This document shows positions 8,679-9,510 of a DNA stretch of 54,495 bases, piece by piece (position 1 is the first letter of the stretch; every line of letters starts with the position of its first letter). The notes below the pieces were generated by a model that had not been told where the DNA came from, did not search any database, and saw only the letters and a list, made by a program, of their open reading frames with translations. Source of the stretch: Candidatus Methylomirabilis tolerans (GTDB lineage: Bacteria; Methylomirabilota; Methylomirabilia; Methylomirabilales; Methylomirabilaceae); NCBI GenBank assembly GCA_019912425.1, contig JAIOIU010000018.1, positions 1 to 54,495 on the forward strand, in the 5' to 3' direction. A program made the translations under genes and the position numbers.

Positions 8679-9026
8679 TTAACGAAGCAATTTCTCGTAC
8701 GTTGCCGCGTCAAAGCCGACCACAAGCGTACGACCCGTCCGGAGGGTAGGGGCTCGCAGGCCCCCGGTTGGTCCCAGCAGGAGCGCGAGGAGTTGAGCCC
8801 TGCCTGGCTTGTCCTTCTGCAGGTCAACGTAGATAACCTTCCGCCCTTTCGTTGCGTAGATCTCGTCTACCTCTCGGACCAGCGCGAGCGCCTCCTTCTC
8901 TTTCAAGGGCTGTTTCTTTGCATCCACCTGCAACGTGATCTCGACGCGATGTTCCGCAAGAAACTCTTGCGTTTTGGTGCAGCCCTTTCATCCGGGGCGG
9001 TGGTACCTCCAATCGACTCGTCCCAT
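8679..9026 (-). CDS. ArsC/Spx-like thioredoxin-fold selenoprotein with in-frame TGA (UxxC)
   Basis: Read from the ATG at 9026, which follows GGAGGAG at a good distance, the frame is open for 12 codons. It meets TGA at 8990-8988 and then stays open to TAA at 8679. If the TGA is selenocysteine, the 115-residue product begins MGRVDWRYHRPG-U-KGCTKTQEFL. That gives a U-x-x-C motif exactly where ArsC/Spx-like proteins have their redox cysteine, followed by EFLAEHRVEI and the ATKGRKVIYVDLQ and LLGPTGGLRAPTLRTG segments of the fold. Length and start match the family only when the TGA is read through. A TTG start at 8933 would give a headless domain. A hairpin follows the TGA, and a tRNA-Sec gene is 300 bp away. 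The fold is fairly sure. The substrate is unknown, and arsenate reduction is not implied. Confidence 0.8.
8955..8971 (-). promoter_or_regulatory. candidate bacterial SECIS hairpin
   Basis: On the mRNA strand CGCAAG and CTTGCG form a perfect six-pair stem with loop AGTTT. The loop begins 23 nt after the UGA. Bacterial SelB-binding hairpins lie just 3' of the UGA inside the coding region and have a G and U in the apical loop, as here. Confidence 0.5.
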
Positions 9027-9325
9027 TGAGAACTCCTCCATCAGGCCCATGATGCGTACAGACGGTCCAGGTTGAACACTTACGGGTTCCAAGGGGGTTA
9101 CGCGCAACAGCGGCTTAGAGCGCACCTGACCATCGATTCCTCAGTATGATTTCCACGCCTCATCGTGACGGATACCCAAGTTATGTGCAAGGAGAAAGTT
9201 CTCACCTCCCGCACCAGGCTGACTGATGCGTATCCGCTCTTGCCGTCGGGACTGTTACCCCGCACGACCACTGCGTTGCCCTGGACATAGGAGGGGATAT
9301 CATAATCTATTAGCGATAGGATAAT
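9027..9325. other. 300-bp spacer between selenoprotein gene and tRNA-Sec
   Basis: No supported gene was found. A 96-codon minus-strand frame (9098-9388) crosses the region but has no ribosome site, no recognisable domain, and overlaps the tRNA-Sec gene. The spacer should hold divergent promoters, but none with two good boxes was seen. Confidence 0.4.
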
Positions 9326-9430
9326 GATCAGGCGACCGTGCTGGTGTGCGGTGCGGACTTCAAATCCGTGATGCCGTTCCGACTGCAAATCGGGCGGATG
9401 TGGGTTCGATTCCCACCCTGATCTCTACCA
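9326..9430 (+). tRNA. selC: tRNA-Sec (anticodon TCA), acceptor end irregular
   Basis: The features are diagnostic of tRNA-Sec: a six-pair D-stem CCGTGC/GTGCGG with four-base loop TGGT (9336-9351), an anticodon stem GCGGA/TCCGT with loop CTTCAAA giving TCA, and a long variable arm (CCGT-T-CCGA paired with TCGGGCGG, one bulged T). The T-arm is GTGGG/CCCAC with loop TTCGATT. The acceptor is odd: GATCAGG (9326-9332) pairs perfectly with CCTGATC (9417-9423), but the expected eighth pair is missing. The genomic CCA at 9428-9430 lies four bases too far to be the normal end. The 3' border is therefore approximate. It should decode UGA in the neighbouring UxxC gene. Confidence 0.8.
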
Positions 9431-9510
9431 TGCGTGGGCCAGCCGGGATAAATACGGCGGGCTTACGGAAATAATCGACGTTGAAGATCAATCCGCATAG
9501 CTGAAAAAGC

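Follow-up and report, generated by a model that had tools for sequence, protein, structure and literature searches.

Within the window, the 54,495-nucleotide stretch of contig JAIOIU010000018.1 from the methane-oxidising bacterium Candidatus Methylomirabilis tolerans analysed here, positions 9026..8679 of the minus strand very probably encode an ArsC/Spx-like selenoprotein of 115 aa. In the genus Methylomirabilis, this gene stands alone between a lytic transglycosylase gene and fae. Its reading frame opens with ATG GGA CGA, passes through CGC CCC GGA TGA AAG GGC TGC—the in-frame TGA being codon 13 at 8988..8990 (minus strand)—and continues to a TAA stop; translated, it reads MGRVDWRYHRPG-TGA-KGCTKTQEFL and onwards, with a cysteine at residue 16. 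A Shine-Dalgarno sequence, GGAGGAG, occupies 9039..9033 on the same strand, 6 nt before the ATG at 9026, in agreement with the strong ribosome site claimed by an earlier, sequence-only reading of this DNA. That reading had also expected an ordinary gene call to begin at the TTG at 8933, and a mechanical ORF call does start there, giving 84 aa. It named no strand; 8679-9026 read on the plus strand yields a meaningless translation. A contig labelled 'Candidatus Methylomirabilis sp. Ru_enrich_MO2' (NSJM01000086) is of the same species and identical at the arsC-like locus.

NCBI holds a model for exactly the family of this gene, NCBIfam NF041106 ('ArsC family (seleno)protein'), which the translation matches with 138.2 bits (cut-off 85) over positions 1-107 of the model's 107. 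The window gene is a further member of this already known selenoprotein family, and the hint of novelty in the sequence-only reading is not supported: the family has been named, a 2026 review tabulates it as 'Arsenate reductase-like protein' with a UxxC motif (PMC13188914), and ArsC-like selenoproteins have been reported since the Sargasso and GOS surveys of 2005-2008 (PMC1088965, PMC2398784). The protein also scores slightly above the cut-off of Pfam ArsC. The U/CxxC motif that NF041106 places at the N-terminal end of helix 1 is found here as U13-x-x-C16, with the helix spanning residues 14-25 in the predicted model.

Among 95 genomes of the phylum, 35 homologues exceeded the NF041106 cut-off, each with exactly one internal stop, TGA, at the same position, in frames that are intact at 54-93% identity; these homologues are related, so their counts are not independent events. 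Across the 25 that were aligned, invariant residues flank the TGA on both sides (W6, Y8, H9, R10, G12, [U13], C16, and Q20). A second set of about 30 lower-scoring ArsC-like genes in the phylum genomes (E about 1e-13 to 1e-6), mostly with one in-frame TGA, is likely to be another selenoprotein subfamily of the phylum.

The structure predicted by AlphaFold from 25 own and sister sequences (pLDDT 92.4) had Spx and ArsC-related proteins as its best PDB matches in Foldseek, with modest TM-scores of about 0.5, and model and matches agree with the ArsC/Spx thioredoxin fold claimed earlier. In alignments with the ArsC-related structure 3gkx and with Spx 1z3e, residue 16 corresponds to the second cysteine of CxxC and the UGA column to the redox cysteine (Cys10 of Spx). 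The TGA had been proposed to take the place of just this cysteine, forming U-x-x-C, with a cysteine to be looked for in the U13 column; both structures have one there.

Beyond the UGA, at 8955..8971 on the minus strand, lies a candidate bacterial SECIS hairpin with a 7-bp stem, the loop GUU, a UGA-loop distance of 23 nt and a folding energy of -9.0 kcal/mol. These values fall within all four bSECIS limits, namely a loop of 3-9 nt with a G in its first two positions, a stem of 4-16 bp, a spacing of 16-37 nt from the UGA and an MFE <= -7.5. As a single sequence, the 60 nt past the UGA in the window fold no better than shuffles (z -0.24), and the case for the hairpin therefore rests on conservation. 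In 30 of the 30 above-cut-off genes that were read out, a hairpin of the form CGCAAG[A/G]GUU[U/C]CUUGCG starts 16 nt past the UGA, the outer pair being one base off in two genes and one G-U pair occurring in another. Its innermost pair (26-30) is a compensating one—G-C in 15 genes, A-U in 13, and A-C in 2—and the change links Glu/Gly (GAG/GGG) with TTT/TTC. Codon choice in the stem is correspondingly rigid: the Leu codon is CTT in 30/30 genes vs 17/358 Leu codons (5%) in the remainder of these genes, and CAA is used in 29/30 vs 14/67 there, with Fisher values that are descriptive only, the sequences being related.

The sequence-only reading had suggested a search of the genome for selA, selB, and selD. 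All three are present (597, 375, and 401 bits, respectively), together with a canonical tRNA-Sec (67.4 bits; G000:C162:74042-74132), and selD has an in-frame UGA of its own, before GCK. To judge from sequence, the hairpin, the forced codons of its stem and the Sec genes together mark a genuine selenoprotein gene, and the earlier interpretation of the locus is supported, each of its proposed checks that was run having turned out in its favour. With this gene, a named family gains an example that is well supported and phylum-wide, and the strongly conserved SECIS of NF041106 genes could be taken as a model for Methylomirabilota, whose selenoproteome is reported to be among the largest in bacteria; one Methylomirabilota MAG with 63 selenoprotein genes is mentioned in PMC13188914. 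Separately, an int-alpA RNA match was seen downstream of the canonical tRNA-Sec gene (L040, within +180 bp), which suggests a genomic island integrated at that tRNA.

A second, predicted UGA-reading tRNA gene starts 300 bp from the arsC-like gene, at 9326..9424 on the plus strand. ARAGORN misses it, while the Rfam tRNA-Sec model matches 9326-9423 with 57.9 bits. The acceptor branch of this tRNA is of the 7/5 type, while the 6-bp D stem with its 4-nt D loop and the anticodon UCA (9360..9362, in the loop CUUCAAA at 9358-9364) are as in tRNA-Sec. Its variable arm folds as CCGA-CUGCAAA-UCGG, in which the 7-nt loop (9383..9389), specific to U73 tRNAs, displays GCA at 9385-9387 in the manner of a Cys anticodon loop; the minimum-energy fold of the whole is a cloverleaf with five arms, two of them ending in 7-nt anticodon loops. 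GCA is the anticodon of tRNA-Cys, and U73 its discriminator. An ordinary tRNA-Cys is also encoded in the genome (C124). Position 9424 of the two-loop tRNA is a T (U73), not the G73 held essential for tRNA-Sec (PMC5330540).

The tRNA sits in a segment of ~296 bp (9201..9496) that sister genomes lack: in them, only 10-15 bp separate the arsC-like gene from fae. It occurs in 4 of the 15 genomes of the genus, in all of them next to fae, and nowhere else among the 95 phylum genomes. Because the tRNA is ~95% identical among carriers while most of the segment around it is not alignable, the comparison argues for selection on the tRNA. A search for a phage or plasmid origin of the tRNA gave no match. 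We also considered tRNA and arsC-like gene as one module and rejected this, as most Methylomirabilis have the gene here without the tRNA, and one genome of the genus (G032; L062) has the tRNA without the gene. In G032, the two-loop tRNA was found alongside SelA, SelB, and SelD; neither a canonical tRNA-Sec nor the arsC-like gene was detected there, an absence that is weak evidence in a fragmented assembly. Two Chloroflexi-type contigs (L112, L099) hold clear homologues of the tRNA, also with U73, and on one of them (L112, 2573-3019) the two-loop tRNA is directly followed by a gene similar to the C-terminal portion of YedF, a protein of selenium metabolism (99 bits, slightly below cut-off).

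When 84,980 genomes were scanned with a pattern for such tRNAs, the combination of UCA, U73, and the GCA loop turned up in 17 Deltaproteobacteria (L066-L141). In 85 genomes of one deltaproteobacterial class, UGCAAA was present in the variable arm of 9/9 UCA tRNAs with an encoded CCA and U73, vs 0 of ~63 UCA tRNAs with G73 (Fisher 1e-11, relatedness ignored). Among 13 of these deltaproteobacterial U73 tRNAs, the loop of the variable arm is invariant, while three of the six pairs in its stem vary on both sides. Further matches were set aside: in those with G73 (Planctomycetes, Gammaproteobacteria, Spirochaetes, Aquificaceae), the 7-mer lies in the stem or off-centre and is probably there by chance, and most of those with a longer span are ordinary tRNA-Cys that happen to have CTTCAAA upstream.

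A tRNA-Cys encoded by selC* was reportedly described by Mukai in 2017 (NAR). Such tRNAs are reviewed in PMC7609411, and we assign the deltaproteobacterial U73 tRNAs to them because the 8/4 structure and the bulged A recur in them, as does A1-U72 in some, and because a second selB directly follows them in several genomes. A variable-arm GCA loop goes unmentioned in the same review (PMC7609411). Nearly all deltaproteobacterial genomes searched contain a second CysRS, which in the loci read (L166-L171) is a cysteine synthase-CysRS fusion of ~780 aa. The one fusion scanned by Pfam has the anticodon-binding domain CysS_C, whereas CysRS* is described as being without such a domain (PMC7609411).

The neighbouring U73 tRNA, which the sequence-only reading missed, qualifies the claim that the UGA of the arsC-like gene stands for Sec only, as this tRNA might also read it, as cysteine. 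Taken as a full alternative, with the UGA read as cysteine always or at selenium shortage by a CysRS-charged two-loop tRNA, and with Cys or a Sec/Cys mix in the product, we consider the idea improbable. It draws on the joint presence of the UCA anticodon loop, U73 and the GCA loop, on the preservation of the tRNA in four Methylomirabilis genomes amid unalignable spacer, and on the strict company that the GCA loop keeps with U73 (9/9, as opposed to 0/63 with G73). However, most Methylomirabilis carry the arsC-like gene and its SECIS without this tRNA, G032 shows from the other side that tRNA and gene are not bound together, and the genome has no second SelB or CysRS. An ordinary short gene of 84 aa from TTG 8933, with a non-coding part upstream, is what the mechanical ORF call proposes, but this is already contradicted and very improbable: the upstream codons and the UxxC motif are among the best-conserved parts, and in the predicted fold the product would lack helix 1 along with all of strand 1 and some of strand 2. 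A pseudogene, with the TGA as a nonsense mutation, has nothing beyond the stop codon itself in its favour and is refuted by conservation, given the same TGA, intact frames and SECIS phylum-wide.

We are thus left with high confidence that a stand-alone gene at 9026..8679 encodes an NF041106 selenoprotein with an ArsC/Spx-like thioredoxin fold, into which selenocysteine would be inserted at the UGA via the SECIS. Ribosomes would start at ATG 9026 and meet the UGA at codon 13, where SelB with Sec-tRNA-Sec would bind the hairpin 16 nt beyond and selenocysteine would be inserted in vivo. The protein would then run a selenenylsulfide cycle in which the selenol of U13 acts as redox nucleophile and the thiol of C16 probably resolves; the presumed substrate is a disulfide or an oxyanion. 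Gene, UGA, hairpin, predicted fold and Sec machinery can each be read from the DNA and its relatives; the protein is most likely a Sec-dependent oxidoreductase of the thiol/disulfide type, with U13 attacking and C16 resolving. Operon or ars context gave no recognisable clue to function: reading of the flanking ORFs, in ten other genomes and in other families of the phylum too, revealed no ars genes, and no conserved neighbours hinting at a substrate were found, the neighbours in the genus being the transglycosylase and fae. Since this context and a match to the arsenate reductase ArsC equivalog TIGR00014 (none up to E=10) are both missing, strict arsenate reduction by the window protein is not supported.

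As for the two-loop tRNA, we infer that the GCA of its variable arm would serve recognition by CysRS and the UCA decoding of UGA. Some Methylomirabilis might then possess, next to a canonical tRNA-Sec, a Cys-type tRNA that offers UCA to the ribosome and GCA as bait to the anticodon domain of the ordinary CysRS, such that UGAs like that of the arsC-like gene could be read as Sec or Cys; deltaproteobacterial selC* tRNAs would split decoding and charging in the same way, with the cysteine synthase-CysRS fusion as partner. We put this scheme forward tentatively, as a possibility that we think rather less probable than its opposite; the molecule may instead be a regulatory RNA. If the tRNA works, the decoding anticodon and the charging anticodon would be separated within one molecule, and one organism could read UGA as two amino acids. 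The two-loop tRNA is more unusual than the selenoprotein gene and raises the interest of the locus, the more so if it is functional.

Set beside selC* tRNA-Cys, the window tRNA is alike in its tRNA-Sec shape, its U73 and its UCA anticodon, and the deltaproteobacterial examples of selC* share its GCA loop in the variable arm. It differs in having a 7/5 branch with no bulge, whereas selC* has an 8/4 structure with the A51a bulge, and while selC* is linked to selB* and cysS* in some lineages, Methylomirabilis has one SelB and one ordinary CysRS. The protein, for its part, resembles the Spx/arsC_related family (TIGR01617) in fold, in the position of the redox Cys/Sec and in its CxxC-like motif, but has Sec for Cys and scores 35.5 bits, below the cut-off of 75.05. 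With the arsenate reductase selenoproteins of the Sargasso and GOS surveys (PMC1088965, PMC2398784), it shares the ArsC-like character and Sec at the catalytic cysteine; the commoner family of those surveys is UxxS, listed under TIGR00014 in the 2026 table, a model without a match to the window protein, whereas the GOS 'arsenate reductase 2' has UxxC, as found here. From NF041106 itself there is no essential difference: the window protein agrees with it over the whole 107-position model, in the UxxC motif and in the in-frame UGA.
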